Source: Actinoplanes aureus
GTDB taxonomy: Bacteria > Actinomycetota > Actinomycetes > Mycobacteriales > Micromonosporaceae
NCBI RefSeq assembly: GCF_015704865.1
Contig: NZ_JADQTO010000020.1
Coordinates: 62,001-126,000 of the forward strand
Direction: 5' to 3'
Length of the DNA: 64,000 nt
Each line of letters opens with the position of its first letter. The first letter of the stretch is position 1. The notes beneath the pieces were generated by a model. The model saw only the letters and a program-made list of their open reading frames with translations, had not been told where the DNA came from and did no database searches. Below are positions 3 through 43,574 of this stretch, one piece after another. A program made the position numbers and the translations under genes.

Positions 3-3000
3 GCACCCGGTGTCGCAGGCCAGGTGGACGTGATCGGGCAGGCGATCGACCGGGCCGGTGTGCCGGCCGAGACCATCACGTACCTCGAGGCGCACGGCAC
101 CGGTACCCCGCTCGGCGACCCGGTGGAACTGCGTGCGGCGGCGCAGGCGCTGGCCGGGCGCACCGACCGGGTGGGCTTCTGCACGGTGGGCTCGGTCAAG
201 CCGAACCTCGGCCATCTGGACAGCTGCGCCGGCATGGCCGGGCTGATCAAGACCGTGCTGATGCTCCAGCATCGGACCATGGTGCCCCTGGTCAACTTCG
301 AGCGACCGAACCCGGAGCTGGACCTGGAGGGCGGACCGCTGGTGCTGGGCACGACCGTGCGGGAGTGGAACACCGGCGGGAACCCGCGCCGGGCCGGTGT
401 CACCGCACTCGGCGTGGGCGGTACCAACGCCCACCTCATCGTGGAGGAGGCACCGGCTGTGCCGGCTCACCGCGGCAATGACCCGGGGGAGCGGGTGGCG
501 GTTCTGCCACTGTCAGCGGCGCATCCGGAAGCGCTGACGGAACTCGCCGGCAAGCTGCACGATCACCTGCGGGCGTACCCCCGGCTCGATGTCGCCGACC
601 TGGTCACCACCGCCGCGCTCGGCCGTTCCCACCTGAGGTACCGGACGGCGGTCGTCGGGGCGACGGCCACCGAGCTGGCGGAGGCGCTGCGGGACGCCAC
701 ACCGGTCGAGGTGGCTTCCGGTGAGCGGCCGCCGGCGATCACCTTCGCCTACGGCGGTCAGGGATCCGCCTTCGCGGGTATGGCCGCCGAGTTGTACGAG
801 GCGGTCCCGGCCTTCCGCGACGTTCTGGATGAGTGCGAGGAGGTATACCGGCAGGAGACCGGGGACAGCCTGCTGGCCTACCTGCGAGACGGCCGGGCCC
901 CGACCCCAAGCCAGGACACGGACCTGGCCCAACCGGCCCTCTTCGCTTTCCAGATGGCACACACCGCGATGTGGCGTTCTCTCGGCGTCGAGCCGGCCTT
1001 CGTGGTCGGGCACAGCGCCGGGGAGTACGCGGCACTCTGCGCGGCGGGCGCGATGAACGTCGCCGACGGTCTGCGCCTGATGATCGCGCGGGGACGGCTG
1101 CTGCGCCGGACCGCCCCCGGAGCGATGATCGCTGTCTTCGCCGGCGAGGCCGCCGTCGACGATCTCCGCACCCGGACCGGGGTGGAACTGGCCGCCGTCA
1201 ACGGCCGGACCGAGTACGTCGTCGCAGGTTCCGAGCGGGCGGTCGACGAAGCGATCGGCTGGCTCGACGAGCAGGCGATCACCTGGCACCGCCTCGCCGT
1301 CGACCGGGCGTTTCATACCGCGCTGCTCGACCCGGTCCTGAGCGAGTGGACCGGGTGCGCGGCGGCCGTACCGATGAAGCCCCTCGACATCCCCCTCGCC
1401 AGCACGCTGACCGGCACACTGCTCCACCCGGGAACCGTGGTGGGTGCCGCACACCTGCGCCAGCAGACCCGAGAGCCGGTACGGTTCGCCGACGCGCTGG
1501 CCGCGCTGAACGGCGTGGGCTGTGAGACGTTCCTGGAGATCAGCCCGGAGGCGGTTCTGACCGGGATCGCTCGCCGCTCCGGAACCGGCAGACGATGGAT
1601 CGCCGTGGCGGAGCAGGGCACCGGACCACTGCGCGCCCGCTCGACGGCCCTCGCCGAGCTCTATTCGCTCGGCGCCAACCTGGACTGGTCGCGGATCGCT
1701 CCCGGCGGTCGCCGCATCCCGCTACCCGGCTATCCGTTCCGGCGAGATCGGCACTGGACCGAGGCCCGCCCGCAGCAGGCTGGCCCGGAGCCCGCCGGTG
1801 TCGCACCGGTGAGTGACCCGGGACCGGTACTGGCCAGGATTCGCGAGCTCACCGCCCGGGAGATCGGCGTCGAGCCGGCCGCGATCAGCCCCGACGCGAC
1901 ATTTCTCGACCATGGCGCCGACTCACTGACGATGCTGCGAGTGGTTCAGCAGGTGCGCCGGCAGTTCGGGGTCGACATCGCCGTACGCCGCTTGTTCACT
2001 GACGCCGCCACTTGCCGCAAGCTCGCCGAGCTCATCGGCGGTGAGCGCGGCCCCGATGTCGCCGCCCCGCCTCCGGCGGCACCGGCGCTCCCAGAGGCCG
2101 ACTCGCAAAGCGTCGCGAGGGTCGTCGCCGAGCAGTTGCGCGTCACCGGCCAGCTCTTGGAGAACGTCACCACCCTCATGCGGGATCAGCTGAACATGTT
2201 GCGCGGTGACCCGGCGCCGGTCGCCGCGGTGCCGGTGACGGTCAAGCCATCGCCGGAGCGTGTGGCGACCCTAGCGCCGGCCATGAGCCCCGAACGACAG
2301 GCGGCCGACTTCAGCCTCTACTTCTTCGGCGACTACCCCGACTCGGATCAGAATCGCAAGTACGAAGCGATCATCGCGGCCGCCCGGTTCGCCGACGATC
2401 ACGGGTTTCACGGCGTGTGGCTGCCCGAGCGGCACTTCCACTCCTTCGGCGGTCTGTTCCCGAATCCCGTCGTCGTCGCCGCGGCGCTGGCCCGGGAGAC
2501 CTCGCGAGTCCGGATCAACGCCGGGTCGGTGGTGCTTCCCCTGCACAATCCGATCCGTGTCGCCGAGGAATGGTCGGTGGTCGACAACCTCTCCGACGGG
2601 CGCGTCGGCCTCTGCGTGGCCAGCGGCTGGCACGCCAACGACTTCGCGCTCCGGCCGGAGGCCTTCGGCCGGCACCGTGAGCTGACGTTCGAGCACCTCG
2701 AGACGGTACGGCGGCTGTGGTCCGGTGCGGCGGTACCGGCGACCTCCGGCTCCGGGGAGGCGATCGACGTACGCATCTATCCGCGGCCTCTGCAACCACT
2801 GCCGCCGCTGTCGGTGGCGGTGGTGTCGAACCCGGACACCTACCGCGCGGCCGCGGCTGCGGACGTCGGCGTGGTCACCAATCTGATGGTGCAGTCGGTG
2901 GAGCAACTGGCGGAGAACATCGCGCTGTACCGCCGGAGCAGGGCTGAGCACGGACACGATCCGGCTGGTGGCCGCGTGGTGGTGCTGGTGCACACCTACC

Positions 3001-6000
3001 TGGGCGCGGACCTGGAGAGGGTCCGGGCCGAGGCGTACGAACCGTTCTGCGACTACCTGCGATCGTCGCTCTCGCTGTTCGGTCAGGTCACCAACAGCCT
3101 CGGCATGCGCATCGACGAGGACACCCCGCCGGAGGACGTCGACTTCCTGCTGGAGCGGGCCTACCAGCGCTACTGCGCCGAACGGGCCCTGATAGGCACG
3201 CCCGAGACCGTCGGCCCGATCATCGACCGCCTCGTCCGCGCGGGGGCTGACGAGATCTCCTGCTTCATCGACTTCGGCCTACCGGCGGAACAGATGCTCG
3301 AGTCCCTCAACTTCGTCGACGAGGTGCGGCGCCGGCATCACCGTGACGACCGGACCGAGGCACCGGGTATCGCGCTGTCCCCGGCACAGCGGGGAATGTG
3401 GTTCCTCGAACAGCTGCATCCCGGCACCCTGAACTACCACGAGCCGAAAGCCGTGCGGTTGGACGGACCGCTCGACGTCAGCCGGCTTCGACGGGCGCTT
3501 GCCCGGGTGGTCGACCGGCACGCGCCGCTGCGGACGGTGTTCCGGCAGGTCAACGGCGAACCGCAACAGGTCGAGCTGCCGGCGGTGCGCGTCGAACTGC
3601 CGGTCCAGGACCGTCTGGGCGAGCCCGAGGCCCAGGTCCTGCGCTCGGTGCTGCAAGAGATGAACGTGACGCCGATCGACCTGGCCGCGGGACCGCTGCT
3701 GCGAGCCGCCCTGATCCGTCGCGGCCCCGATCGGCACCTGCTCGTGCTGTGCGTGCATCACATCGTCTTCGACTCGTTCTCCACGGCAGTCCTTCTCCGC
3801 GACCTCGCCGCCTTCTACCGCAGCGGACCGGACGGCCCGGACCCGCTTCCCGCGCTGCCCGTCACCTACGCCGCGCATCTGGCCACCCGCACACCCGACG
3901 CGGATCGGGCCGCCCGGGCGAGGGAGTACTGGCGACGTACCCTCGCTGGTGCCCCGTCGCTGGCGCTGCCCACTGACCCTCCCCGTGCGGCGTCGGGCGG
4001 CGGGAGCGGGGCGTCGCTCACCGTGGACTGGGACGCGGACCTCGCCGCTCGGGTCGGCGGTTTCAGCCGGGACCATCAAGTGACGCCGTTCATGACGCTG
4101 ACGGCAGCGCTCGCCGGCGTTCTCGGCAGGTTCAGCGGCCAGCACGACCTGGTGCTCGGCACCGCGCTGACCCATCGCCCGCCGGGCACAGAGGACCTGA
4201 TCGGCCTGTTCATCGACACCGTACCCCTGCGCATCGATCTCGCCGGCGACCCTTCGCTGGGTGAGCTCGCGCAGCGGGTGCGCGAGGTCAGCACCGAGGC
4301 GTACGAACACGCCGGTATCGGTTTCGACGGCATGGTCGCGGCCGTCAATCCGGAGCGTGAGTCGAGCCGCAATCCGCTCTTCCAGGTGCTGATCGAGTAC
4401 GAGAACCGGACGGACGTGGACTTCGATCCGCCGCTGTTGCGGGCCAGCAGCGTCGACGTGGCCAGCCATCGGGCGCCCCTGGACATCACCGTCTACCTGT
4501 CCAACCACGACCACGGCTTGCAGTGCCACGTCGAGTACAACACCGACCTCTTCGACGAGCGGACGATCAGCGCGGTGCTGCGTTACGCGGAGTCCATGCT
4601 GCGCCGAGCCGCTGCCGCCCCCGAGCTGGGCCTGGCCGACCTGACGGCTCCTACCGAGGCTGACCGCACGGCTCTGGCCGCATGGAGCGGCCGCCCCTAC
4701 GAGCAGCCGGCGGCCGGCCTGCACACCCTGTTCGAGACGCAAGCGCGCCGGGAACCCGATGCCGTCGCTCTGCGGACCGAGCTCGAGCCGGTGACCTACC
4801 GGGAGCTGGACCGGCGGGCGAACGCCTTGGCGTGGCGTCTGCACGACCGTGGCGTGCGGCCGGACGACATCGTGGGAATCTGCCTCCCCCGAGGTACCGA
4901 GCTCATCGTGGCCATCCTCGGCGTGCTCAAGGCCGGGGCGGCCTATCTACCGCTGGATCCGGCAGTGCCGTTGTCACGGCTGGCGTTCATGGCGCGAGAC
5001 AGCGGCGCCTGGTTGCTGGTAACCGGCGACGGGGCGCTGGCCGCGCAGCTCGAGCTGGAGGCGGTGGCGGTCGAGGGTGCGGAACCGCGATCGGTGGCGC
5101 CGCCGCCCGTACCGGTGGATCCGGACCGGCTGGCGTACTGCATCTACACGTCCGGCTCCACCGGGATGCCCAAGGGTGTTGCGGTGCCGCACCGCGGCCC
5201 GGTCAACCTGGTCGCGTACTACCTGCGGATCCGGTCGCCGATGCGGACCCTGCAATGGGTCTCACCGAGCTTCGACGTCAGTGTGCAGGAGATCTTCACA
5301 ACGCTGGCCTCCGGTGCGGAGTTGGTGCTGATCCCGAACGAAGCCCGGTACGAGCCCACAACGGTCGCGGAAACCGTCCGCCGCTTCGGCGTGCAGCGAC
5401 TCTTCATGACGTTCACCGCGTTGAAGTACCTGATGGACACGGATCCGGCGATGCCGTCACTGCGGGAGGTCGTCTCCGCGGGAGAACCGATGTTCCTCAC
5501 GCCTGCGCTCCGGTCCTTCTTCGCGAAGAGCCCCGGGTGCGCGCTCTACAACGAGTACGGCCCGACAGAGGCGTCCATCATCGCGACCGTTCAGCGCGTG
5601 GACCTGTCCGCCGGGGACCGCCCACCGATCGGCCGTCCCGTCGACAACGTCGAGGTTCACGTGCTCGACGACGCCGGACGACCCGTTCCGCCGGGCGCGG
5701 TCGGCGAAATCCACCTGGGCGGATGCTGCCTGGCCCGGGGTTACGTCGCCCGGCCTGACGAGACCGCGCAGAGTTTCGTTCCGGTGCCCGCGGTCGCCGC
5801 CCGGCGGCTGTACCGGACACGCGATCGGGGCCGCTGGTCGCCGGACGGAGCACTGGAGTACCTGGGGCGGGTCGACGATCAGGTGAAGATCCGGGGCTTC
5901 CGCGTCGAACCCGGTGAAGCCCAGCAGTCGCTGTCGCGGCTTCCGCAGGTCCGTGACGCGGCTGTCGTCGCCGGCACCGACCAGCGTGGGGAGACCTACC

Positions 6001-7691
6001 TGATCGGGTACGTGGTGCCGGAGGCGGGGGCGACGCTGACCGGGGAGGACCTCGCGCGCCGGCTGGCCGGCACGCTTCCCGGCTACCTGATTCCGACCGC
6101 ATGGGTACGCCTGAACGAGTTGCCGGTGAACACGAGCGGCAAGCTCGACCGCGCCGCCCTGCCACCGCCACGGCGTTCCCGGGACGAAGCCGGCGCCGCG
6201 CCGGTGACCGACACCGAGAAGGTCCTGCACGAGCTCTGGCGCACCGAGTTGGGGCTCGGCGAGATCTCCGTCGACGCCTCGTTCTTCGCCCTCGGCGGCC
6301 ATTCCCTGTCCGCGGTCGGGCTGGTCAACCGGATACGGACCGCTGTCGGTGTCGAAATCGGTGTGGCGGACCTGTTCCGCGCACCGACGATCCGGCGCAT
6401 GGCGCTCGAGATCGACAAGCGCGACAGCACCGAGACCGCCCCCGCGTCGAGCGTTCAGCAGCGTGCCTGGCATCTGCATCACGCCAGTGCCTACCCCGCC
6501 GTCTACAACGTGACGCACCGGATCGATCTGCGAGGACCGCTCGACATCGATGCTCTGCACCGGGCTCTGGCCGGGCTCGCGCAGCGGCATCCCGTCCTGC
6601 GCACCGGATTCGCGGTTCTCGACGGTGAGCTGCGCCAGGTCATCTCCCGGGAAGCCGGCATCGAGCTCCCGGTCGTCGATGTCGGGCCCGAGCCGGACCG
6701 CGTGCCTGCCTGGTGCCAGACCGAAGCCGCTACGCCGTTCGATCTCGACCGGGCACCGCTGTGGCGGGTGCGCCTGGCCGCGGCCGGCGAGCAGCACTGG
6801 GTGCTCGTCCTGGTGATGCATCACATCATCTGTGACGGCTGGTCCATCGGTGTCATCGCCCGGGAGCTTTCGGCCCGGTACGCCGCGGAGGTCGGCGCCG
6901 GATCGGCCGAGCTGGACACTCCGGTCCCCTACGGCGCCTACGTGCGGTGGCGGCAGGCCGCCTGCGCGCAGGAGCAGGACCGTCTCACGAGCTTCTGGCA
7001 GCGCCGCCTGGCCGGCGCCGACCTGCGTCTGCCCCTGCCCTACGACCACCCGCGACCAGACACACGGTTGTCGGGACGCGGAGGGCTACGCCGCTTCAGC
7101 TTCCCCGATCGGGCCGTCGAGGCGGTACGACAGTCGGCGAAGGAGCTCGACACCACGCCCGCTGCCGTACTGACCGCTGTGTTCAGCATCTGGCTGGGCC
7201 GGCTGTGCGACCGGAACGACCTGGTGCTCGCGCTCTCCAGCGCCAGCCGCACCCGGCCGGAACACGCGAGCGTGGTCGGACCCGTGGGCGAAGCCTTGCT
7301 GGTACGGCTGACCCAGCGGGACGGCATGCCCCTCGCGGACCTGGTGGCGCAGGTGAGGGAGCGGACGTTCGAGGCGATCGATCACCATCTGCTGCCGCTG
7401 CGCGAGGTCAGTCAGCTGGTCGGCCAAGAGCTTTCCAGCCCACAGATCCTGTTCACCGTCGTCACGACACCGCCCCCTGGGCTCACCCTGCCCGGTCTCA
7501 CGACGGAGATCGCCGGGGTCGCTGTCGACGGAGTCGCGCGTACGGAGTTGTACGTGGTGATGATCCACGGCGATGACGGCATCTCACTGGTGATCGAGTA
7601 CTCGGCAGACCTGTTCGAGAGCGAGACCATCCAGCGCTGGGGGGAGGACCTCATCACGACAGCACAGGAGGCCTGCGGGCCTCTCGGCTAG
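3..7691 (+). CDS. Hybrid PKS-NRPS with internal luciferase-like monooxygenase (5' partial)
   Basis: The frame is open from the left edge, so the start lies outside. Domains in order: the C-terminal part of a ketosynthase (HGTGTPLGDP, then KPNLGHLD); an acyltransferase with GHSAGEY (Ser codon near 1014) and an AFH motif that usually goes with malonyl-CoA; an ACP (GADSL, Ser near 1923); a flavin-dependent luciferase-like monooxygenase at about 2280-3345; a condensation domain with HHIVFD near 3755; an adenylation domain at about 4700-6160 (YTSGSTGMPKG, NEYGPTE, NTSGKLDR); a PCP (LGGHSL, Ser near 6303); and a second condensation domain with HHIICDG near 6820. The protein ends there with no thioesterase or reductase. 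The chain is therefore presumably passed on, or released by condensation with a free amine or alcohol. The substrate of the adenylation domain was not predicted. The next gene starts 42 bp downstream on the same strand. Confidence 0.95.
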   Translation, partial: APGVAGQVDVIGQAIDRAGVPAETITYLEAHGTGTPLGDPVELRAAAQALAGRTDRVGFCTVGSVKPNLGHLDSCAGMAGLIKTVLMLQHRTMVPLVNFERPNPELDLEGGPLVLGTTVREWNTGGNPRRAGVTALGVGGTNAHLIVEEAPAVPAHRGNDPGERVAVLPLSAAHPEALTELAGKLHDHLRAYPRLDVADLVTTAALGRSHLRYRTAVVGATATELAEALRDATPVEVASGERPPAITFAYGGQGSAFAGMAAELYEAVPAFRDVLDECEEVYRQETGDSLLAYLRDGRAPTPSQDTDLAQPALFAFQMAHTAMWRSLGVEPAFVVGHSAGEYAALCAAGAMNVADGLRLMIARGRLLRRTAPGAMIAVFAGEAAVDDLRTRTGVELAAVNGRTEYVVAGSERAVDEAIGWLDEQAITWHRLAVDRAFHTALLDPVLSEWTGCAAAVPMKPLDIPLASTLTGTLLHPGTVVGAAHLRQQTREPVRFADALAALNGVGCETFLEISPEAVLTGIARRSGTGRRWIAVAEQGTGPLRARSTALAELYSLGANLDWSRIAPGGRRIPLPGYPFRRDRHWTEARPQQAGPEPAGVAPVSDPGPVLARIRELTAREIGVEPAAISPDATFLDHGADSLTMLRVVQQVRRQFGVDIAVRRLFTDAATCRKLAELIGGERGPDVAAPPPAAPALPEADSQSVARVVAEQLRVTGQLLENVTTLMRDQLNMLRGDPAPVAAVPVTVKPSPERVATLAPAMSPERQAADFSLYFFGDYPDSDQNRKYEAIIAAARFADDHGFHGVWLPERHFHSFGGLFPNPVVVAAALARETSRVRINAGSVVLPLHNPIRVAEEWSVVDNLSDGRVGLCVASGWHANDFALRPEAFGRHRELTFEHLETVRRLWSGAAVPATSGSGEAIDVRIYPRPLQPLPPLSVAVVSNPDTYRAAAAADVGVVTNLMVQSVEQLAENIALYRRSRAEHGHDPAGGRVVVLVHTYLGADLERVRAEAYEPFCDYLRSSLSLFGQVTNSLGMRIDEDTPPEDVDFLLERAYQRYCAERALIGTPETVGPIIDRLVRAGADEISCFIDFGLPAEQMLESLNFVDEVRRRHHRDDRTEAPGIALSPAQRGMWFLEQLHPGTLNYHEPKAVRLDGPLDVSRLRRALARVVDRHAPLRTVFRQVNGEPQQVELPAVRVELPVQDRLGEPEAQVLRSVLQEMNVTPIDLAAGPLLRAALIRRGPDRHLLVLCVHHIVFDSFSTAVLLRDLAAFYRSGPDGPDPLPALPVTYAAHLATRTPDADRAARAREYWRRTLAGAPSLALPTDPPRAASGGGSGASLTVDWDADLAARVGGFSRDHQVTPFMTLTAALAGVLGRFSGQHDLVLGTALTHRPPGTEDLIGLFIDTVPLRIDLAGDPSLGELAQRVREVSTEAYEHAGIGFDGMVAAVNPERESSRNPLFQVLIEYENRTDVDFDPPLLRASSVDVASHRAPLDITVYLSNHDHGLQCHVEYNTDLFDERTISAVLRYAESMLRRAAAAPELGLADLTAPTEADRTALAAWSGRPYEQPAAGLHTLFETQARREPDAVALRTELEPVTYRELDRRANALAWRLHDRGVRPDDIVGICLPRGTELIVAILGVLKAGAAYLPLDPAVPLSRLAFMARDSGAWLLVTGDGALAAQLELEAVAVEGAEPRSVAPPPVPVDPDRLAYCIYTSGSTGMPKGVAVPHRGPVNLVAYYLRIRSPMRTLQWVSPSFDVSVQEIFTTLASGAELVLIPNEARYEPTTVAETVRRFGVQRLFMTFTALKYLMDTDPAMPSLREVVSAGEPMFLTPALRSFFAKSPGCALYNEYGPTEASIIATVQRVDLSAGDRPPIGRPVDNVEVHVLDDAGRPVPPGAVGEIHLGGCCLARGYVARPDETAQSFVPVPAVAARRLYRTRDRGRWSPDGALEYLGRVDDQVKIRGFRVEPGEAQQSLSRLPQVRDAAVVAGTDQRGETYLIGYVVPEAGATLTGEDLARRLAGTLPGYLIPTAWVRLNELPVNTSGKLDRAALPPPRRSRDEAGAAPVTDTEKVLHELWRTELGLGEISVDASFFALGGHSLSAVGLVNRIRTAVGVEIGVADLFRAPTIRRMALEIDKRDSTETAPASSVQQRAWHLHHASAYPAVYNVTHRIDLRGPLDIDALHRALAGLAQRHPVLRTGFAVLDGELRQVISREAGIELPVVDVGPEPDRVPAWCQTEAATPFDLDRAPLWRVRLAAAGEQHWVLVLVMHHIICDGWSIGVIARELSARYAAEVGAGSAELDTPVPYGAYVRWRQAACAQEQDRLTSFWQRRLAGADLRLPLPYDHPRPDTRLSGRGGLRRFSFPDRAVEAVRQSAKELDTTPAAVLTAVFSIWLGRLCDRNDLVLALSSASRTRPEHASVVGPVGEALLVRLTQRDGMPLADLVAQVRERTFEAIDHHLLPLREVSQLVGQELSSPQILFTVVTTPPPGLTLPGLTTEIAGVAVDGVARTELYVVMIHGDDGISLVIEYSADLFESETIQRWGEDLITTAQEACGPLG

Positions 7692-7733: not shown

Positions 7734-8996
7734 ATGGTGAACACGACTTCCCGCACCGCGACGGTGACGCTGCCCGGCTCCAAGTCAGTGACCGCTCGTG
7801 CGCTGTTCCTGGCCGCTCTGGCGGACGGTGAGAGCCGGCTGGTCGCTCCGCTCGAGGCCGCCGACACGGTCGCCTTCGCCGACGGGCTCGCGGCGCTCGG
7901 CTTCGGTGTCGTCCGGGACGGCGACGTCTGGAGCATCACCGGCGACCCGTCCGGGCCGCCCGCCGACACCGCGGAGGTGTGGTGCCACGACGCCGGCACC
8001 GCGGCGCGCTTCCTGCCCGGGTTGGTGTCACTCGGTACGGGTCAGTTCGCCATCGACGCCAGCGAGCAGATGCGGGCCCGTCCGATGCGGCCGTTGCTCG
8101 AGGCGCTACGTGCGCTGGGCGTGCGGGTGCACGCGGCGGACGGTGACCGGCTTCCCCTGCGGATCGACGCCGACGGCGTGGCGGGCGGCGTGGTGCGGGT
8201 GGACGCCGGCGCCTCCAGCCAGTACCTGAGCGCCCTCTGCATGATGGGTCCCGGTACCAAGAACGGGCTGAGCATCGAGGTGCTCGACGAGGTGTCCGTG
8301 CCGTACGTGGAGCTGACCCTCGCGATGATGCGTGAGTTCGGCGCCTCGGTGTCGCGGCAGGGTTCGCGGATCACCATCGCCCCGGGCACCTACCAGGCGC
8401 GGGAGTACGTCATCGAGCCGGACGCGTCCACCGCCTCGTACTTCTTCGCCGCGGCGGCGGTCACCGGCAACACCGTGACCTTGCTCGGCCTCGGCCGCCG
8501 GTCGAGGCAGGGCGATCTGCGTTTCGCCACCGAGGTTCTCCCCGCGATGGGCTGCGAGGTCACGGTCGCCGACGACCGGACCACGGTGACCGGCCCGGCG
8601 CGGTTGCGCAGTCCCGGCACGGTCGTCATGCGCGACATCAGTGACACGATGATGACCCTGGCCGCGATCGCGCCCTTCGCCGACGGACCGGTCCGGATCA
8701 CCGACGTGGCGAACTGCCGGGTCAAGGAATCCGACCGGATCGACGCGATGTCCTCGGCGCTGGGCGCGTGCGGGATCGCCACCAGCTCCGGGCCGGACTG
8801 GTTGGAGATCACTCCCGGCCGTCCCCGGGCGGCGACGGTACAGACCCGGGCCGATCACCGCATCGCGATGAGCATGAGCGTGCTCGGCCTCCGTACCCCG
8901 GGCGTTCGTTTCGACGACCCGGCCTGCGTGCGCAAGACCTTCCCCGACTTCCACTCGGTGTTCGCCGGCCTTCAGGAGACCTGGCGGCGGGGCTGA
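7734..8996 (+). CDS. EPSP synthase (3-phosphoshikimate 1-carboxyvinyltransferase) family protein
   Basis: A 420-residue member of the enolpyruvyl transferase family, which joins phosphoenolpyruvate to shikimate-3-phosphate. Visible motifs are LPGSKSVTAR (Lys17, Ser18, Arg22), the DAGTA loop at 86-90 where most relatives have NAGTA, GASSQYLSAL, DASTASYFFAAA, an Asp in ISDTMMT, RVKESDRI, DHRIAMS and a C-terminal RKTFPD. The active-site framework therefore looks intact. GGAGG sits only one base before the ATG, so GTG at 7737 is an equally good start. The position 42 bp after the NRPS and just before a second primary-metabolism homologue suggests a cluster-specific copy, either a resistant target or a biosynthetic enzyme. 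A misplaced housekeeping aroA is not excluded. Confidence 0.88.
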   Translation: MVNTTSRTATVTLPGSKSVTARALFLAALADGESRLVAPLEAADTVAFADGLAALGFGVVRDGDVWSITGDPSGPPADTAEVWCHDAGTAARFLPGLVSLGTGQFAIDASEQMRARPMRPLLEALRALGVRVHAADGDRLPLRIDADGVAGGVVRVDAGASSQYLSALCMMGPGTKNGLSIEVLDEVSVPYVELTLAMMREFGASVSRQGSRITIAPGTYQAREYVIEPDASTASYFFAAAAVTGNTVTLLGLGRRSRQGDLRFATEVLPAMGCEVTVADDRTTVTGPARLRSPGTVVMRDISDTMMTLAAIAPFADGPVRITDVANCRVKESDRIDAMSSALGACGIATSSGPDWLEITPGRPRAATVQTRADHRIAMSMSVLGLRTPGVRFDDPACVRKTFPDFHSVFAGLQETWRRG

Positions 8997-9045
8997 CAGG
9001 GCTCCGACTCCGCCACGACGTTCGTTGATCAGGATGGATGACGAC

Positions 9046-10236
9046 ATGCGCCGTGTGGTGCTGCTGGGCTCGACCGGCTCGGTGGGTACGCAGGCGGTCG
9101 ACGTCGTGCGACGTCACCGCGACCGTTTCCGGGTGCACGGCCTCGCCGCCGGCGGTAGCCGGCTGTCGTTGCTGGCCGAGCACGTGCTCGACCTGAGCCC
9201 GGACGTCGTGGCGGTGGCCGACCGCGACGCCGAGCCGTCATTCAGGTCGGCGATCCGGGCAGAGGCCGAGCGGCGAGGACTCAAGCCGGCCGACCATCCG
9301 CACCCGGCTGTCCTCACCGGCCCGGAAGGAGTCGAGGAGCTCGCGGCCGGCGGCGTGGACGTGGTGCTCAACGCCATCGACGGAGCGCTGGGGCTGGCCT
9401 CCACTCTGGCCGCGGTACGCACGGGGAATCTGGTGGCTCTGGCCAACAAGGAGTCGCTGATCGTCGGTGGCGACCTGATCAGGCGGATCGCCCAGCCCGG
9501 GCAGCTGATTCCGGTGGACTCCGAGCACGCCGCGATCGCACAGTGCCTCCGCTCCGGCGCGCGCGGCGAGGTGCACCGGCTCGTACTCACCGCCACCGGC
9601 GGGCCGTTCCGCGGCCGGGCACGTACCGAACTGGCCGCCGTCACACCGGCGCAGGCGCTGGCCCATCCGACCTGGTCCATGGGCCCGGTCATCAGCATCA
9701 ACTCGGCGACGCTCGTCAACAAGGGGCTGGAGGTCATCGAAGCGCACCTGCTCTTCGACGTGCCCTTCGACGACATCGTGGTGATGCTGCACCCGACCTC
9801 GGAGATCCACTCCATGGTGGAGTTCTCCGACGGGGCGGTCATCGCACAGGCCAGCCCGCCGGACATGCGGCTGGCCATCGCCTTCGGGCTGGCCTTCCCC
9901 GCTCGCCTGCCCGGGGTCGCGCGCGCCTTCGACTGGACCAAGTCCTACGACTGGCGACTCGACCCACTGGACGACGTGGCTTTTCCCGCGGTCGACCTCG
10001 CCCGCCACGTCGGCCGTACCGGCGACGGCGCTCCGGCGGTCTACAACGCCGCCAACGAGATCTGCGTGCAGCGTTTCCTGGCCGAGCGGCTGCCGTTCCT
10101 GGACATCGTCGACACCGTGGCGCGGGTGGTGGGGGAGTACCAGCCGAGCACGATCCGCGACCTGGCGGACCTGGACGCGGTGGATACCTGGGCCCGGGCC
10201 CGAGCCACCGAGATCACTGATCGCCGAACACCCTGA
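9046..10236 (+). CDS. dxr: 1-deoxy-D-xylulose 5-phosphate reductoisomerase (DXR/IspC) homologue
   Basis: The family converts DXP to methylerythritol phosphate with NADPH and Mn/Mg in the isoprenoid MEP pathway. Seen here: the N-terminal GSTGSVG nucleotide loop, NKESLI, the metal-binding VDSEH, TATGGPFR, HPTWSMG and NKGLEVIEAH. At 396 residues it has normal family length. The flap region reads HPTSEIHSM where housekeeping enzymes usually have HPQSxIHSM, a substitution next to the fosmidomycin-binding loop. ATG at 9046, 8 bases after AGGATGG, is preferred to TTG at 9025 or ATG at 9034. It follows the EPSP-synthase-like gene by 49 bp and probably belongs to the same transcript. It could be a resistant second copy, a biosynthetic enzyme or the only dxr of the genome. 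Confidence 0.88.
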   Translation: MRRVVLLGSTGSVGTQAVDVVRRHRDRFRVHGLAAGGSRLSLLAEHVLDLSPDVVAVADRDAEPSFRSAIRAEAERRGLKPADHPHPAVLTGPEGVEELAAGGVDVVLNAIDGALGLASTLAAVRTGNLVALANKESLIVGGDLIRRIAQPGQLIPVDSEHAAIAQCLRSGARGEVHRLVLTATGGPFRGRARTELAAVTPAQALAHPTWSMGPVISINSATLVNKGLEVIEAHLLFDVPFDDIVVMLHPTSEIHSMVEFSDGAVIAQASPPDMRLAIAFGLAFPARLPGVARAFDWTKSYDWRLDPLDDVAFPAVDLARHVGRTGDGAPAVYNAANEICVQRFLAERLPFLDIVDTVARVVGEYQPSTIRDLADLDAVDTWARARATEITDRRTP

Positions 10237-35518: not shown

Positions 35519-36811
35519 ATGGCACCTAACAGGACCCTCGCAATGGCTGCCGTGGTGGCGCTGGGCGCCATGAGCCTGGCCGCCTGCAGCGGCGGCGACG
35601 ACGACGGCGGCAGCTCCGGCTCGGGCGGCAACGTCACGATGCAGTTCTGGCACAACGCCACGACCGGGCCCGGCAAGGCGTTCTGGGACAAGACGGTCGC
35701 CGACTTCCAGACCGCCAACCCGAACGTCAAGATCAAGATTCAGCAGGTCCAGAACGAGGACCTGGACGGCAAGCTGCAGACCGCGCTGAACTCCGGCTCC
35801 GCGCCCGACATCTTCCTGCAGCGCGGCGGCGGCAAGATGGCCGCGATGGTCGAGGCCGGCCAGCTCAAGGACATCACCGGCGACATCACCGCGGAGACCA
35901 AGGCGGCGGTCGGGCCCGCTCTGGGGACGGGGCAGGTCGACGGTAAGTCGTACGCCGTACCGGTCTCGATCTTGCCTGGGGGTTTCTGGTACAGCAAAGA
36001 TCTGTTCAAGAAGGCCGGTGTCGAGGCGCCCCCGACCACGTTGGAGGAGCTCAGCGCGGCGGTGACCAAGCTGAAGGCCAACGGTACGCCGATCGCCCTC
36101 GGCGCCAAGGACGCGTGGCCGGCCGCTCACTGGTACTACTTCTTCGCCCTGCGTGCCTGCAGTCAGGCCTCGCTCGACGCCGCCGCGAAGGACAAGAACT
36201 TCAGCGACGCCTGCTGGACCAAGGCCGGCAACGACCTCAAGGCCTTCGCCGACACCAAGCCGTTCAACGACGGTTTCCTGACCACCTCCGCGCAGCAGGG
36301 TGCGGGCAGCTCGGCGGGTCTGGTGGCCAACTACAAGGCGAGCATGGAACTCATGGGCGCCTGGGACCCGGGCGTGATCGCCTCCCTGACGAAGGACACC
36401 AAGCCGCTGCCCGACCTGGGCTTCTTCCCCTTCCCGGCGGTTTCCGGCGGCCAGGGTGACCCGGCCGCGATCATGGGTGGCGCGGACGGCTACTCGTGCT
36501 CGGCGCAGGCGCCGAAGGAGTGCGCCGACTTCCTGAACTACATCGTGACCAAGGACGTGCAGGAGGGCTACTACAAGGCCTTCAACTCGCTGCCGATCAG
36601 CAAGGAGGCCCAGGGCGCCGTCACTGAGGAGTACCTCAAGGCGGTTCTCGAGGCCTACAACAAGGCACCGTACGTCTCGCAGTGGCTGGACACGATCTAC
36701 GGGCAGAACGTGGGCAACGCCCTGAACGTCGGCGTCGTGAATCTGCTCGCCGGCAAGGGTGACGTCGCCGGAATCATCAAGTCCGTGAACGACGCGGCCA
36801 AGAAGGGCTGA
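35519..36811 (+). CDS. Sugar ABC transporter substrate-binding lipoprotein
   Basis: 430 residues, family 1 extracellular solute-binding protein. The signal peptide ends in a lipobox (LAAC, Cys23), followed by an acidic Gly/Ser linker. MQFWHNATTGPGKAFWDKTV is the typical N-lobe start. It sits on the outer face of the membrane and delivers oligosaccharide to the two permeases encoded next. The xylan enzymes on both sides suggest xylo-oligosaccharides as ligand, by context only. GAGAGGTGAG precedes the ATG. Confidence 0.95.
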   Translation: MAPNRTLAMAAVVALGAMSLAACSGGDDDGGSSGSGGNVTMQFWHNATTGPGKAFWDKTVADFQTANPNVKIKIQQVQNEDLDGKLQTALNSGSAPDIFLQRGGGKMAAMVEAGQLKDITGDITAETKAAVGPALGTGQVDGKSYAVPVSILPGGFWYSKDLFKKAGVEAPPTTLEELSAAVTKLKANGTPIALGAKDAWPAAHWYYFFALRACSQASLDAAAKDKNFSDACWTKAGNDLKAFADTKPFNDGFLTTSAQQGAGSSAGLVANYKASMELMGAWDPGVIASLTKDTKPLPDLGFFPFPAVSGGQGDPAAIMGGADGYSCSAQAPKECADFLNYIVTKDVQEGYYKAFNSLPISKEAQGAVTEEYLKAVLEAYNKAPYVSQWLDTIYGQNVGNALNVGVVNLLAGKGDVAGIIKSVNDAAKKG

Positions 36812-36813
36812 GC

Positions 36814-37803
36814 GTGGCGGTCACTGCGGACGCGCCCGGTGACCGTGTGCGGAACGGAGGCGGCGTGCAGGCGTCGCCTCCGTACCGTCCCCGCCGGCGC
36901 GGCATAGGTTGGGCGCAACGTCTGGAGATCGCGGCGCTGTCCGGCCCGGCGATCCTGATGTTCGTCGGCTTCGTGATCTTCCCGGTCCTGATGGCCGGGT
37001 ACTACGGCTTCTACCGGTGGAAGGGTTTCGGGGCACCGACCGACTTCGTCGGCCTCGACAACTACGTCACCATCCTGCAGGACAGCCTGTTCCACGAAGC
37101 GCTGTGGCACAACGGTCAGATCGTCGTGCTGTCGCTGGTGCTCCAGGGTCCGATCGCGGTCGGCCTCGCGCTGCTGCTCAACCAGAAGATGCGCGGCCAG
37201 TCGATCATCCGGATACTCATCTTCGTCCCGTACGTGATCGCCGAGGTCATCGTCGGAACGGCCTGGAGCCTGATGCTCCAGACCAACGGCGCGGTCAACG
37301 ACGTCCTGAGGTCGATCGGTCTCGGCTGGCTGGCCGAGGACTGGCTGGCGAACCCGCAACTCGCCATCTGGACCTTGATGCTGATCCTGACCTGGAAGTA
37401 CGTCGGGTTCGCGGTGATCCTGTTCCTGGCCGGGATGCAGAACATCCCGGAGGAACTGTCCGAGGCCGCCGCGGTGGACGGCGCCTCCTACTGGCAGACC
37501 CAGTGGCGGATCACCCTGCCGCTGCTCGGGCCCACCATCCGGATCTGGGCCTTCCTGTCGATCATCGGTGCGCTACAGCTGTTCGACCTCGTCTACATCA
37601 TCTGGGGCCAGTACGTCGCGTCGACCGCCGGCACCTCGACCATGGCGACGTACATGGTCACCGAGGGCCGCAACGCGGGCAACTACGGGTACGGCAACGC
37701 GGTAGCGGTCGTGCTGTTCGTCATTTCAATGATCATCGCGCTCGTGTACCAGCGTTTCGTTCTGCGCCGGGACACCGAGGGCGCGCTTACCGGAGGACGG
37801 TAG
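36814..37803 (+). CDS. Sugar ABC transporter permease (MalF/UgpA type)
   Basis: 329 residues with six membrane helices after a basic N-terminal tail. The EAA loop reads EAAAVDGASYWQTQWRITLP and contacts an ATPase. It starts with GTG three bases after the binding-protein stop. The operon has no ATPase gene, so a shared MsiK-type ATPase encoded elsewhere is presumably used, as is normal for actinomycete sugar importers. Confidence 0.95.
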   Translation: MAVTADAPGDRVRNGGGVQASPPYRPRRRGIGWAQRLEIAALSGPAILMFVGFVIFPVLMAGYYGFYRWKGFGAPTDFVGLDNYVTILQDSLFHEALWHNGQIVVLSLVLQGPIAVGLALLLNQKMRGQSIIRILIFVPYVIAEVIVGTAWSLMLQTNGAVNDVLRSIGLGWLAEDWLANPQLAIWTLMLILTWKYVGFAVILFLAGMQNIPEELSEAAAVDGASYWQTQWRITLPLLGPTIRIWAFLSIIGALQLFDLVYIIWGQYVASTAGTSTMATYMVTEGRNAGNYGYGNAVAVVLFVISMIIALVYQRFVLRRDTEGALTGGR

Positions 37804-37806
37804 GAC

Positions 37807-38640
37807 ATGGCCAGGCCCACCCCATCCCGGCAGGGCAATCCGATCGTGTACGTCGGCGCCCTGATGCTGATCGGCCTGATGCTCGGTCCCGTCATCTACA
37901 TCATCATCGGCGGGTTCCGGACCAACTCGCAGATCACCACCGACCCGGCGGCCCTGCCGGACCCGTGGGTGTTCGGCAACTACACCGATGTGCTGACCAG
38001 CGACGTCTTCTGGCGCCAGGTCGGCAACTCGACGATCGCGGCGCTGGCCACGACCATCGGCGTCGTGGTGCTGGGTGTGATGGCGAGCTACGTCCTGGCC
38101 CGGTACAAGTTCCGCGGCCGGGGAGCGATGTACGCCCTGTTCGCCGCCGGCCTGATGTTCCCGGCGACGGTCGCCATCACGCCGCTGTACATCCTGGTGA
38201 AGAACCTGGGCCTGGTGAACACCCTGCCCGGCGTCATCCTTCCGCAGATCGCCTTCGGGCTGCCCACCACGATCATCATCCTGGTCCCGTTCCTGCAGGC
38301 CATTCCCAAGGAGATCGAGGAGGCCGCCGCCATCGACCGGTGCAGCCGGCTCGGGTTCTTCTGGCGGATGGTGCTCCCACTGTCGGTGCCGGGCCTGATC
38401 ACCACCGGGATCCTCGCGTTCATCGGCAGCTGGAACAGCTATCTGCTGCCGCTGTTCATCCTGAACGATCAGGACGGGTTCACTTTGCCGCTGGGCGTGC
38501 AGGCGTTCGCATCGCAATACTCAGTTGACACCGCCAAGGTGCTCGCGTTCACCTCGTTGTCGATGATCCCGGCGCTGGTGTTCTTCAGCCTGTTCGAACG
38601 CCGCATCGTGGGTGGCCTCACCGGTGCGGTCAAAGGATGA
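37807..38640 (+). CDS. Sugar ABC transporter permease (MalG/UgpE type)
   Basis: 277 residues with six membrane helices and the EAA loop EAAAIDRCSRLGFFWRMVLP. It is the second half of the membrane channel, 3 bp after the first permease. Its stop lies 32 bp before the preferred GH120 start. Confidence 0.95.
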   Translation: MARPTPSRQGNPIVYVGALMLIGLMLGPVIYIIIGGFRTNSQITTDPAALPDPWVFGNYTDVLTSDVFWRQVGNSTIAALATTIGVVVLGVMASYVLARYKFRGRGAMYALFAAGLMFPATVAITPLYILVKNLGLVNTLPGVILPQIAFGLPTTIIILVPFLQAIPKEIEEAAAIDRCSRLGFFWRMVLPLSVPGLITTGILAFIGSWNSYLLPLFILNDQDGFTLPLGVQAFASQYSVDTAKVLAFTSLSMIPALVFFSLFERRIVGGLTGAVKG

Positions 38641-38672
38641 CGCAGCAAGTGACGACAGAAAGGCACCAGAAC

Positions 38673-40640
38673 ATGACATCGCTGCACGTGGCGACCACCG
38701 GATCCGACGACGCCGACGGCTCGGCGCAACGGCCGTTGCGGACGATCAACCGGGCCGCGGCGCTCGCGAGGCCCGGGGACACCGTGGTCGTGCACGCCGG
38801 CGAGTACCGAGAGTGGGTGACGCCCCGGCGTGGCGGCCTGAGCGACAACCGCCGCATCACCTACCAGGCCGCCGAGGGCGAGCACGTCGTCATCAAGGGA
38901 TCCGAGCGGATCACCGGCTGGGAGCCGGACGGCGGGACCGTGTGGAAGGCGACGGTGCCCAACGCGCTGTTCGGCGACTTCAACCCGTTCGCCGAGGAGA
39001 TCGCCGGCGACTGGGTCGTCTACGCCGACAAGGCGCCCCGCAAGCACCTCGGCGACGTCTACCTCAACGGCCTCAGCTTCTACGAGGCCGGCTCGCGCGC
39101 CGAGGTGTCCGCCCCTGAGAAGCGCACCGAGATGAAGGACGACTGGACCGGCGTCACCGACCGCGTCCGCAACCCGGAGCAGACTCTGCTGGTCTGGTAC
39201 GCGCAGGTGGACGCCGAGGCGACCACGATCTGGGCGAACTTCCAGGGCGCCGACCCGAACGCCGAACTGGTCGAGATCAACGTACGCCGGTCGGTGTTCT
39301 ACCCGCTCGTGCCGCACCTGGACTACATCACCGTGCGCGGCTTCGAACTGGCCCAGGCCGCGTGCCCGTGGACCCCGCCGACCGCCGACCAGCCCGGGTT
39401 GATCGGCCCGAACTGGGCCAAGGGCTGGATCATCGAGGACAACGTCATCCACGACGCGAAGTGCTCGGCGATCTCCCTCGGCAAGGAGGCCTCGACCGGC
39501 CACAACTACGCTACCGAGCGCGGCGACAAGCCCGGTTACCAGTACCAGCTCGAGTCGGTCTTCTCCGCCCGGCAGATCGGCTGGGACAAAGAGCACATCG
39601 GCTCGCACGTCATCCGCCGCAACCACATCTACGACTGTGGGCAGAACGGCATCGTCGGTCACCTCGGCTGCGTCTTCTCGACGATCGAGGACAACCACAT
39701 CCATCACATCGCGGTCAAGCGCGAGTTCTACGGCTACGAGATCGGCGGCATCAAGCTGCACGCCGCCATCGACGTGGAGATCCGGCACAACCGCATCCAC
39801 GACTGCTCGCTGGGCACCTGGCTGGACTGGCAGACCCAGGGCACCCGCGTCTCCCGCAACGTCTACTACGACAACAACCGCGACCTGTTCATCGAGGTCA
39901 GCCACGGGCCGTACCTGGTCGAGCACAACGTTCTCGCCTCGCCGGCCGCGCTGGAGCTGTGGAGCCAGGGCGGGGCGTTCGTCAACAACCTGCTCTGCGG
40001 CACCGTGTGGCTCAACCCGGTGATGGACCGGGCCACGCCGTACCACCGGCCGCACAGCACCCAGGTGGCCGGCTACGCGTTCATCGTCGGTGGCGACGAC
40101 CGGTGGCTCGGCAATCTCTTCGTCGGGGGAGACCCGGCGGTGGCGTACGCGGCGTCCGTGCCCGAGGGCAGTGCCGAGGCGTACGCCGGCACCGCCGGCT
40201 ACGCCGGCTACCCGGCGTCGTTCGAGGAGTACCTGCAGCGCATCGACGAGCAGCCGCCCGGCGACCACCAGCGCTTCCTCAACGTGAAGCAGGCCGTGTA
40301 CGCCCAGCGCAACGTCTACGCCGCCGGCGCCCGCCCGTTCGACGGCGAGCGTGACCCGGTGACGCTGGACAGCGCTTCCGCGTCGATCGTCGAGGAGGGC
40401 GACGAGGTCTACCTGGTGACCGACCTGCCGGAGGGCATCGCCGGCGCCGGTATCGCCCCGGTCGGCGGCCGCGACCTGGAGCGGGTCCGGTTCGTCGACG
40501 CCGAGTTCGAGGAGCGTGACGGCAGCCCCGCGGTCATCGACACCGACCTGACCGGTGTCCGCAAGGAGCCGGGGCGGACGTACCCGGCGGGCCCGCTCGC
40601 CGGCCTCACCGTGGGAAGCAGCCGGGTACGCGTCTGGTGA
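38673..40640 (+). CDS. GH120 beta-xylosidase (right-handed beta-helix)
   Basis: 655 residues without a signal peptide. The sequence follows the Thermoanaerobacterium XylC type closely from the first residues (HVATTGSDDADGSAQRPLRT) to the C-terminus (recalled comparison). The catalytic pair proposed for GH120 is kept: Asp385 in TWLDW and Glu408 in DLFIEVSHGP. It should release xylose from imported xylo-oligosaccharides. ATG 38673 with AGAAAGG upstream agrees with family length; ATG 38637, which overlaps the permease stop, is the alternative. Confidence 0.92.
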   Translation: MTSLHVATTGSDDADGSAQRPLRTINRAAALARPGDTVVVHAGEYREWVTPRRGGLSDNRRITYQAAEGEHVVIKGSERITGWEPDGGTVWKATVPNALFGDFNPFAEEIAGDWVVYADKAPRKHLGDVYLNGLSFYEAGSRAEVSAPEKRTEMKDDWTGVTDRVRNPEQTLLVWYAQVDAEATTIWANFQGADPNAELVEINVRRSVFYPLVPHLDYITVRGFELAQAACPWTPPTADQPGLIGPNWAKGWIIEDNVIHDAKCSAISLGKEASTGHNYATERGDKPGYQYQLESVFSARQIGWDKEHIGSHVIRRNHIYDCGQNGIVGHLGCVFSTIEDNHIHHIAVKREFYGYEIGGIKLHAAIDVEIRHNRIHDCSLGTWLDWQTQGTRVSRNVYYDNNRDLFIEVSHGPYLVEHNVLASPAALELWSQGGAFVNNLLCGTVWLNPVMDRATPYHRPHSTQVAGYAFIVGGDDRWLGNLFVGGDPAVAYAASVPEGSAEAYAGTAGYAGYPASFEEYLQRIDEQPPGDHQRFLNVKQAVYAQRNVYAAGARPFDGERDPVTLDSASASIVEEGDEVYLVTDLPEGIAGAGIAPVGGRDLERVRFVDAEFEERDGSPAVIDTDLTGVRKEPGRTYPAGPLAGLTVGSSRVRVW

Positions 40641-40674
40641 CCGCAGAGGGCCGACTCCTCGTACGCCGAACCTC

Positions 40675-40971
40675 ATGGCCGATACTGCAGAGGTGACCGC
40701 GATCGACGACGACTCTGAAAAGCCGCAGGACGGCGCCGCCGATGCCTCGCCGGCGCCGGCCCCGCGGAAGTCGCTGAACAGCAACTGGGCCCTCACCGTG
40801 GCGGGTGGGCTCTTCGGTACCTACTACCTGGTCAGCGGAGCCCTGTTGCTCCGTGACAAGCACGGGAACGGGGTGTTCGCCCTGCTCATGACGGGGATTG
40901 TGCTGGTGGTCGGTCTGATCGCCGTCCTGCTGTTCAGGTCGTACCGCGCGGAACGAGCGGCACGGAAGTAG
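40675..40971 (+). CDS. Small two-helix membrane protein
   Basis: 98 residues: an acidic, Ala/Pro-rich N-terminal tail of about 40 residues, two hydrophobic helices (about 42-60 and 68-88) and a basic end (RSYRAERAARK). No family was recognised. It lies 34 bp after the GH120 gene and overlaps the end of the convergent FGE gene by 38 bp. It may be part of the importer transcript. Confidence 0.6.
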   Translation: MADTAEVTAIDDDSEKPQDGAADASPAPAPRKSLNSNWALTVAGGLFGTYYLVSGALLLRDKHGNGVFALLMTGIVLVVGLIAVLLFRSYRAERAARK

Positions 40972-41914
40972 CGACGCATCGGAAGCCGACGTGGCTCATG
41001 CCGGTGTCGACCATGTGCGGGCGTCTCGCGGCCGGGCGGTACCGCAGGCAGTAGCTGTCCGCGCAGAGGAACGACCCGCCCTTGATCACCTTGCGGGGGA
41101 TCCGGACCTGGGGCTGCGCGGGGTCGAAGCTCTGCTCACGGAGCCCGCCCCGGGGATCGCGTGGTGCGCAGCACGGTGAGAGGTCGGCCCAACGCCGTTC
41201 GGCGTACCAGTCCTGGGTCCACTCCCAGACGTTGCCGGCCATGTCGGCCAGCCCGTAGCCGTTCGGCGGGAACGAGCCGACCGGCATGGTCGTTCCGTAG
41301 CCCTGCTCGGCGCGCCACGGGAAGTCGCCGTGCCAGTAGTTCGCCCGCCGCTGCCCGGCCGGTTCGGGTTCGTCTCCCCAGGTGAACGTGGCGGCGTCCA
41401 GGCCGCCGCGGGCCGCGTGCTCCCACTGCGCTTCGGTGGGAAGCGCGAGTCCGGCCCAGGTCGCGTACGCGTCGGCGTCCTCGTAGGCGATGTGCACGAC
41501 GGGATGCTCGGCCCGGCCGTCGAGATCGCTGGCCCGGCCCTCCGGCCGCCACCAGCAGGCGCCCGGCGTCCACGCCCACCACTGGCTGAGGTGACGCAGG
41601 TCGACGGGTCCCGGGGTGCCGACGAAGACCATCGACCCGGGCACCAGGTTCTCGATCGGCGCGCCGGGGAAGTCGGCCGGGTTCAGCGGACGTTCCGCGA
41701 CGGTCCGGTAGCCGGTCTCCGTGACGAACGCGGAGAACGCCGCGTTCGTCACGGTGGTGCGGCTCATCCAGACTCCGTCGACCTCGACGACCCGCGCCGG
41801 GGCCTCCTCCGGGTAGTGCTGGTCGGAACCCATGCGGAAGGCCCCGCCGGGAATCCAGATCATGTCGTCCGCCGGCGGGGCTCCCGTTGACCGGGACAGG
41901 GTTGACTCGGTCAT
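40934..41914 (-). CDS. Formylglycine-generating enzyme (sulfatase-modifying factor)
   Basis: 326 residues. FGE oxidises the sulfatase active-site Cys to formylglycine with oxygen and copper. The FGE fold motifs are present: IPGGAFRMGSD near the start, LPTEAQWEHAARGG, GLADMAGNVWEWTQDW and KGGSFLCADSYCLRYRPAAR. Both active-site cysteines (284 and 289) are kept. ATG 41914 overlaps the sulfatase stop, so the enzyme is made together with its substrate; the longer frame upstream is a shadow of the sulfatase gene. Confidence 0.94.
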   Translation of the reverse strand: MTESTLSRSTGAPPADDMIWIPGGAFRMGSDQHYPEEAPARVVEVDGVWMSRTTVTNAAFSAFVTETGYRTVAERPLNPADFPGAPIENLVPGSMVFVGTPGPVDLRHLSQWWAWTPGACWWRPEGRASDLDGRAEHPVVHIAYEDADAYATWAGLALPTEAQWEHAARGGLDAATFTWGDEPEPAGQRRANYWHGDFPWRAEQGYGTTMPVGSFPPNGYGLADMAGNVWEWTQDWYAERRWADLSPCCAPRDPRGGLREQSFDPAQPQVRIPRKVIKGGSFLCADSYCLRYRPAARRPHMVDTGMSHVGFRCVATSVPLVPRGTT

Positions 41915-43413
41915 GCGCTTGCGATGCCTTCCCGCAGTTTGGCCAGAACCTTGTCGAGGTTGAAGCTGGCCGGTTCCTGCCGGCGCGGGAACTCGGCGAA
42001 ACTCTGCAGCATGTTGAACACGTACGCCTGCATCGGCACGACGATCCAGGCGTGGTCGAGGATCCAGTCGTAGTAGGTGTTCGAGGTGACATCGGCCCGT
42101 TCGTACGGGTCGGTGCGCAAGTTGAAGATCTTCGGGACGCGCAGCTCGGTGAACGGCTCGGCCCACACCCGCAACGTACCGGTCGCCCTCTGCTCCAGGA
42201 AGACCAGCTTCCAGTTGTGGAAACGTACGGCTGTCAGGTCGCCGTCATCGGAGATGTAGAAGAAGTGCCGCCGCGGGCTCTCCTCGACCTCGCCGGTGAG
42301 GTAGCCGGTCTGGTCGTGGCCGTCGAGGTGGACCTTGTAGCGGGTGCCGTTGAGCTCGGTCCCGGTTCGCAGCCGCTCGACGATGTCCGGCACTCCGGCG
42401 GCGGCGAGCAGGGTGGGGAACCAGTCGGTGTGGCTCACGATCCCGTTGAACACGGTGCCGGGAGCGATCCGGCCCGGCCATCGCACCACCGCGGGCACCC
42501 GGTACGCGCCCTCCCAGTTGGAGTTCTTCTCCCCTCGGAACGGTGTCATCCCGGCGTCCGGCCAGGTGTTCATGTGCGGGCCGTTGTCGGTGGAGTAGAC
42601 GACGATGGTGTTCTCGGCGATGCCCAGCTCGTCGACCAGGTTCAGCAGGTCGCCGACGAGCTTGTCGTGGTCGACCATCGCGTCGTGATACTCCGACTGC
42701 CACCGCCCGGCCTGTCCGCGGCTCTCCGGCTTCACGTGCGTACGGAAATGCATGTGTGTGCTGTTGAACCACACGAAGAACGGCTCATCGGCGGTGGCCT
42801 TGTCCCGGATGAAGCCGGCTGCCGCGGCGAAGAACTCCTCGTCGACGGTTTCCATCCGCTTCCTGGTCAGCGGGCCGGTGTCCTCGATGCGCTGGGTGCC
42901 GTCCTTGTCCGCCCACGAGTGGATGACTCCGCGCGGTCCGAACTTCTCCCGGAAGTTCGGCAGCTCTTCCGGCGTGGGGTAGTCGGCGAGTTCCGGTTCC
43001 TCCTCGGCGTTGAGGTGGTAGAGGTTGCCGAAGAACTCGTCGAAGCCGTGCATCGTGGGCAGGTGCTCGTCGCGGTCGCCGAGGTGGTTCTTGCCGAACT
43101 GGCCGGTCGCGTACCCGTGTTCCTTGAGCGCGGTGGCGATGGTCGGATCCTCGGCCTGCAGGCCGACGGGTGCTCCCGGCATACCCACCTTGGTCAGCCC
43201 GGTGCGGATCGGGTTCTGCCCGCAGATGAAGGCCGCCCGCCCGGCGGTGCAGCTCTGCTCGCCGTAGTAGTCGGTGAACCGGGCGCCCTCCTCGGCGATC
43301 CGGTCGATGTTCGGCGTCCGGTAGCCCATCAAGCCGTCGCTGTAACAACTCAGGTTCGAGATCCCGATGTCGTCACCCCAGATCACCAGAATGTTGGGAC
43401 GTTCGGTCGGCAT
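41911..43413 (-). CDS. Type I (formylglycine) sulfatase
   Basis: 500 residues of the alkaline-phosphatase superfamily. Metal ligands are in NILVIWGDDIG, the modified residue Cys55 lies in CTAGR (55-59; the C-x-A-x-R form), and FGKNHLGD and VVYSTDNGPH are conserved. No signal peptide was seen, so it acts in the cytoplasm or leaves by an unknown path. AAGGAG eight bases before the ATG fixes this start. It hydrolyses a sulfate ester of unknown nature; the FGE gene follows in overlap. Confidence 0.95.
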   Translation of the reverse strand: MPTERPNILVIWGDDIGISNLSCYSDGLMGYRTPNIDRIAEEGARFTDYYGEQSCTAGRAAFICGQNPIRTGLTKVGMPGAPVGLQAEDPTIATALKEHGYATGQFGKNHLGDRDEHLPTMHGFDEFFGNLYHLNAEEEPELADYPTPEELPNFREKFGPRGVIHSWADKDGTQRIEDTGPLTRKRMETVDEEFFAAAAGFIRDKATADEPFFVWFNSTHMHFRTHVKPESRGQAGRWQSEYHDAMVDHDKLVGDLLNLVDELGIAENTIVVYSTDNGPHMNTWPDAGMTPFRGEKNSNWEGAYRVPAVVRWPGRIAPGTVFNGIVSHTDWFPTLLAAAGVPDIVERLRTGTELNGTRYKVHLDGHDQTGYLTGEVEESPRRHFFYISDDGDLTAVRFHNWKLVFLEQRATGTLRVWAEPFTELRVPKIFNLRTDPYERADVTSNTYYDWILDHAWIVVPMQAYVFNMLQSFAEFPRRQEPASFNLDKVLAKLREGIASA

Positions 43414-43483
43414 CTGTGTACTCCTTCGCCGGCGGGCCATCGGATTAGTTCTTGGCGAGTGAACGACGCGAAGCCCGGCTCGC

Positions 43484-43543
43484 GCCTCATCCCATACGGG
43501 TGAGTGGCGTGAGCCGGCACAGATCGCCTGCCCGGGATGAGGC
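43484..43543. repeat. 10-bp inverted repeat in the sulfatase/HAD divergent region
   Basis: GCCTCATCCC at 43484-43493 and GGGATGAGGC at 43534-43543 are exact reverse complements 40 bp apart, in the 161-bp gap between the divergent sulfatase and HAD genes. They are spaced about five helical turns between centres, like a pair of regulator sites. Function inferred. Confidence 0.45.
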
Positions 43544-43574
43544 CGGACACCGCGGATCGGTGGATGCTCAGCCG

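Follow-up and report, generated by a model that had tools for sequence, protein, structure and literature searches.

A conserved synthetase-exporter cassette in Actinoplanes aureus with an in-line luciferase-like monooxygenase and a terminal condensation domain that plausibly acts in chain release

How does a PKS-NRPS that carries a luciferase-like monooxygenase (LLM) in line and ends on a condensation (C) domain modify its chain and set it free? The question is raised by the first gene in the stretch of Actinoplanes aureus DNA analyzed here (64,000 nucleotides of contig C23, hereafter the window). Its reading frame is open from 3 to 7691, and Pfam and NCBIfam searches bore out the domain order AT-ACP-LLM-C-A-PCP-C without a thioesterase that an initial annotation had given. 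However, the gene does not begin at base 3. It starts 2829 bases before the window, spans contig positions 59171–69691, and encodes 3506 aa. The upstream part of the cluster, which the initial annotation had proposed to read, contains FAAL, ACP, and the N-terminal part of KS, as well as a gene for an MFS transporter (contig about 57928–59178) that shares 8 bases with the start of the synthetase gene. In Pfam and NCBIfam searches, the whole protein has the order FAAL-ACP-KS-AT-ACP-LLM-C-A-PCP-C. The features in the window are as follows.

3–7691, + strand: in-window part of the synthetase gene, C-terminal 73% of the protein, stop at 7691
3–302, + strand: KS, C-terminal part (Pfam; motifs TACSTS, EAHGTGT, and KPNLGH)
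741–1580, + strand: AT (Pfam; motifs GHSAGE and AFH)
1968–2240, + strand: ACP (Pfam; motif DHGADSL)
2310–3329, + strand: LLM of the MupA/Atu3671 family (Pfam, TIGR04020; nearest solved structure PuwE, 6ket)
3369–4676, + strand: first C domain (Pfam; motif HHIVFDS)
4731–6143, + strand: A domain, predicted proline-like (Pfam; extracted code DVQMVAEIIK)
6222–6404, + strand: PCP (Pfam; motif LGGHSL)
6441–7673, + strand: terminal C domain (intact HHIICDG; the protein ends 6 residues further)
7734–8996, + strand: aroA2, second EPSP synthase gene of the genome, separated from the synthetase gene by 42 bases (Pfam/NCBIfam)
9025–10236, + strand: dxr2, second DXP reductoisomerase gene of the genome, 28 bases behind aroA2 (Pfam/NCBIfam)

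The Pfam matches are far above chance (LLM, 2.6e-51; the two C domains combined, 4e-152; A, 2e-121), and active-site motifs are seen in KS, AT, the ACPs, both C domains, and PCP. The AT domain is presumably of the malonyl type by the usual rule. The domain map of the synthetase contains no KR, and no Pfam match to Aminotran_3 was found anywhere in the protein. A hidden domain between ACP and LLM, including an aminotransferase, was excluded by alignment, as only linker sequence lies there. For thioesterases, a one-sequence search, which could miss a divergent or distant enzyme, gave no match in the first 126 kb of the contig, up to the end of the window.

The LLM domain covers the whole TIGR04020 profile (positions 1–341 of 341) with 461.5 bits, against a curated cut-off of 244.45, and is the sole domain above this cut-off in the genome. 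Among solved structures, it matches the PuwE domain best (6ket, E=2.3e-123). MupA of mupirocin biosynthesis belongs to the same family, and in vitro it hydroxylates only ACP-bound beta-ketoacyl thioesters, at the alpha carbon (PMC10952193). MupA is a separate protein of a trans-AT system and is followed by KS0, whereas the LLM described here is built into a cis-AT PKS-NRPS. PuwE combines an aminotransferase and a monooxygenase between PKS and NRPS parts and is the proposed maker of a 3-amino-2-hydroxy acyl chain (PMC4219810). Like the synthetase, the PuwC/PuwD/PuwE system of Cylindrospermum alatosporum is started by FAAL, has KS-AT-ACP without KR, and has a PuwE-type monooxygenase directly before C-A-PCP. 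The two differ in that the aminotransferase between ACP and the monooxygenase is missing here. Moreover, the synthetase is one protein that ends on a C domain, whereas the Puw line continues with PuwF and closes with a thioesterase. A tree of 109 LLM domains places the in-line ones with PuwE, separate from stand-alone ones; the aminotransferase-free LLM domains do not form one clade.

Because KR is missing, a beta-keto chain is expected, and as neither KR nor an aminotransferase follows KS-AT-ACP, the expected intermediate is an alpha-hydroxy-beta-ketoacyl chain. The LLM would thus hydroxylate the alpha carbon of the ACP-bound beta-ketoacyl chain. The suggestion of the initial annotation that the carrier-bound chain is oxidized before the amino acid is added gains support from the similarity to PuwE, the membership in the MupA family, and the absence of KR. 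For the amino acid itself, the A-domain code DVQMVAEIIK points to a proline-like substrate. Codes in the aminotransferase-free group are mostly similar to DVQMFAQVIK. Val236 and Gln239 mark most proline-activating A domains, and the seventh position of the listed azetidine-2-carboxylate codes is likewise E or Q (PMC12283262). The amino acid is given as a prediction only, since the code positions were derived from our own alignment with GrsA numbering. No match to this code was found in the literature searched.

Taken together, a self-contained cassette of synthetase and MFS exporter is a reading to which we assign an even chance. FAAL would load the first ACP with an activated carboxylic acid, probably a fatty acid. 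KS and AT would then add one malonyl unit, and the beta-ketone would stay because the protein has no KR or aminotransferase. LLM would hydroxylate the alpha carbon of the ACP-bound beta-ketoacyl thioester, and the first C domain would couple the chain to a proline-like amino acid on PCP. These four steps are modeled on characterized relatives. The last two steps are suggested by the layout of the cassette: the terminal C domain would free the chain without a thioesterase, with an internal oxygen or carbon or a small free nucleophile as the attacker, and the MFS protein would export the product.

The pairing of synthetase and exporter is widely conserved. A scan of genome contigs yielded 80 loci, among them 42 further ones with the aminotransferase-free order from FAAL to LLM; their hosts include Streptomyces, Kribbella, Micromonospora, Amycolatopsis, Saccharothrix, Actinophytocola, Lentzea, and others. 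In 36 of these 42 loci, an MFS gene immediately precedes the synthetase gene, as it does in 16 of the 17 testable loci that bear an aminotransferase. These neighbor counts hinge on how far the contigs extend and on our own gene-start calls. The domain maps of the relatives come from single-sequence searches, so divergent domains can be missed. When read over 60 kb, all 11 genomes have both the MFS and the synthetase genes. No match to another NRPS, a thioesterase, or an aminotransferase was found within about 20 kb on either side in eight of these 11 wider neighborhoods, the exceptions being G751, G757, and G749, where a single adenylation domain sits at the far edge. Against a self-contained cassette, other NRPS genes are found near the synthetase in G411, G751, and G757. 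Two small divergent genes that seemed conserved upstream of the cassettes (named sm131 and sm121, without Pfam matches) proved to be the MFS gene read in antisense and were dropped. Within the genus of the window, five related in-line LLM proteins have an in-protein aminotransferase, and one, the G050 protein with 47% identity over its length, lacks it.

The terminal C domain is also retained among relatives. Among 41 checked proteins with the aminotransferase-free architecture (the one described here, four from a separate genome search, two of which repeat scanned loci, and those from the scanned loci), 39 have a C domain as their last domain, with an exact HHxxxDG motif in 37 of these 39. 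The two exceptions are a protein truncated by a contig end and one that ends after PCP. In the window, the motif is present as HHIICDG. In sequence, however, the domain resembles ordinary elongation C domains, with Txo2 as the best solved match (176 bits), and its median identity to relatives is 42.6%, compared to 65.8% for KS and 68.0% for LLM. The terminal C domain is conserved in small cassettes in which no thioesterase was detected, which points to an active domain, with release as the simplest role. Functional examples come from other systems. The termination C domain of glidonin biosynthesis releases the chain using free putrescine (PMC10587159), and the C3 domains of the beauvericin and bassianolide synthetases, which are fungal cyclodepsipeptide synthetases, carry out cyclizing release (PMC5457498). 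In those systems, a C domain at or close to the terminus of the line has been demonstrated to release the chain, whereas here this role is deduced; the comparison with these enzymes is one of position and role. Judging by this layout, chain release by the terminal C domain is plausible. A more specific idea appears quite improbable: the alpha-hydroxyl made by LLM would serve as the nucleophile for the terminal C domain, and a single bacterial enzyme with no thioesterase would thereby form a morpholinedione or a small cyclodepsipeptide as a cyclic ester.

The initial annotation had offered two functions for the last C domain, namely release or transfer to a stand-alone partner, and had named a downstream NRPS module or a thioesterase, encoded upstream with matching docking regions, as evidence against its reading. 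Release is strengthened because the terminal C domain is kept in 39 of 41 proteins and eight of 11 wider neighborhoods have no other NRPS or thioesterase match. As for the partner, no thioesterase match was found in the 126 kb searched, but A-T and A-MT-T proteins without their own C domain, together with a free C domain, are present upstream. These A-T and A-MT-T proteins (contig 38049–44963) are encoded 14–21 kb upstream in a divergent operon, so transfer is possible in this genome. The terminal C domain may accordingly belong to a split module and pass the chain to one of these proteins, so that the synthetase would be the first part of a longer line that also uses nitrocyclopropylalanine. 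A nearby NRPS in G411 that starts with A and is followed by a PCP-TE protein is consistent with such a hand-over. However, the terminal C domain is kept in the eight wider neighborhoods that have no such partner, the conserved unit is the MFS gene plus the synthetase rather than the synthetase plus these NRPS genes, and the protein ends 6 residues after the terminal C domain, which leaves little room for a docking segment. We consider the split module rather unlikely.

The divergent operon (contig 36061–53751, upstream of the window) encodes an HrmI homolog (E=1e-130), a BsmA-domain dioxygenase that we read as HrmJ/BelL-like, and a DapF-like diaminopimelate epimerase. These three kinds of genes are common to the hormaomycin and belactosin clusters, where they serve nitrocyclopropylalanine formation (PMC10764440). 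Several NRPS proteins, a KamA-like enzyme, an F420-type LLM, and a class III aminotransferase are also encoded, and the operon is probably a nitrocyclopropylalanine pathway with a KamA-like aminomutase. Since the MFS-synthetase unit stands alone elsewhere, we read the operon as a neighboring pathway, probably apart from the synthetase cassette, although a link in this strain is possible.

The class III aminotransferase of this operon, encoded about 13 kb upstream, raises another alternative, namely that a separate enzyme aminates the beta-ketone, so that the product would carry the 3-amino-2-hydroxy acyl group known from puwainaphycins and microginins. Class I/II aminotransferase genes lie near the synthetases in G050 and G411, and a sister group of LLM enzymes has an aminotransferase in the same protein. 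With the C-less A-T and A-MT-T proteins, the free C domain, and the class III aminotransferase all within 25 kb of the synthetase, hand-over or amination in trans is possible in this genome. However, the local enzyme is similar to the taurine type and matches the in-line aminotransferases weakly (about 35% over 328 residues), those of G050 and G411 belong to another class, and most cassettes have no aminotransferase match nearby. Amination in trans is thus unlikely.

The two genes behind the synthetase were also considered as parts of the pathway, either because they might encode resistant duplicates of the product's targets or because they might supply building blocks. Both follow on the same strand with short gaps, so that aroA2 is possibly co-transcribed with the synthetase, and each is a second genomic copy (aroA2 shares 43% and dxr2 59% identity with its counterpart). 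Among solved chains, aroA2 is nearest to 7m0o (447.6 bits, compared to at most 250.6 for others). However, a search beside relatives did not support their membership: no aroA or dxr of this kind was found directly beside any other cassette, relatives of aroA2 with 80–82% identity occur in unrelated places in three other genomes with no dxr beside them, and dxr2 has no match at E<=1e-155 among 354 other genomes of the family. Both genes lie outside the conserved cassette. A literature search by titles and abstracts gave no match of aroA/dxr self-resistance to this architecture, and a shared pathway appears very doubtful. The suggestion of the initial annotation that these genes supply the releasing nucleophile is unlikely, as the two are duplicates of aroA and dxr that the other cassettes do not have beside them. 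Further on the plus strand, ATP-grasp, CCR-like, and ATP-grasp genes follow.

The preferred reading, a self-contained synthetase with its exporter, concerns a cassette found across dozens of actinobacterial species, many of which belong to Streptomyces. No product was described for this layout in the literature searched, and by titles and abstracts no match to the FAAL/LLM/terminal-C architecture was found there; ichizinone was rejected as a matching system, as its LLM is free-standing. Because the cassette has only two genes, it could be expressed whole in a laboratory host. Such expression would directly address the ability of a bacterial terminal C domain to release a chain and would reveal the fate of an alpha-hydroxy-beta-keto chain that meets neither an aminotransferase nor a ketoreductase downstream.

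Among the scanned loci, actinobacterial KS-AT / AMT-LLM-C-A-T-C synthetases (e.g., L186–L213) share with the synthetase the LLM-C-A-T-C tail, the intact terminal C domain, and the upstream MFS gene (16/17). They differ in having an aminotransferase domain, a mostly leucine-like A code (DALLLGVVLK), and LLM domains in other clades. One of them, in Streptomyces olivoreticuli ATCC 31159 (L194), has the A code DALLLGIVLK. S. olivoreticuli makes bestatin, a compound that contains a 3-amino-2-hydroxy acid joined to leucine, and a link between this synthetase and bestatin is possible. Finally, genes for a UbiA prenyltransferase, a glyoxalase, a zinc alcohol dehydrogenase, a 3-dehydroquinate-synthase-like protein, and a polyprenyl synthase lie on one strand at contig positions 20884–29207 and possibly form a separate pathway for a prenylated product.
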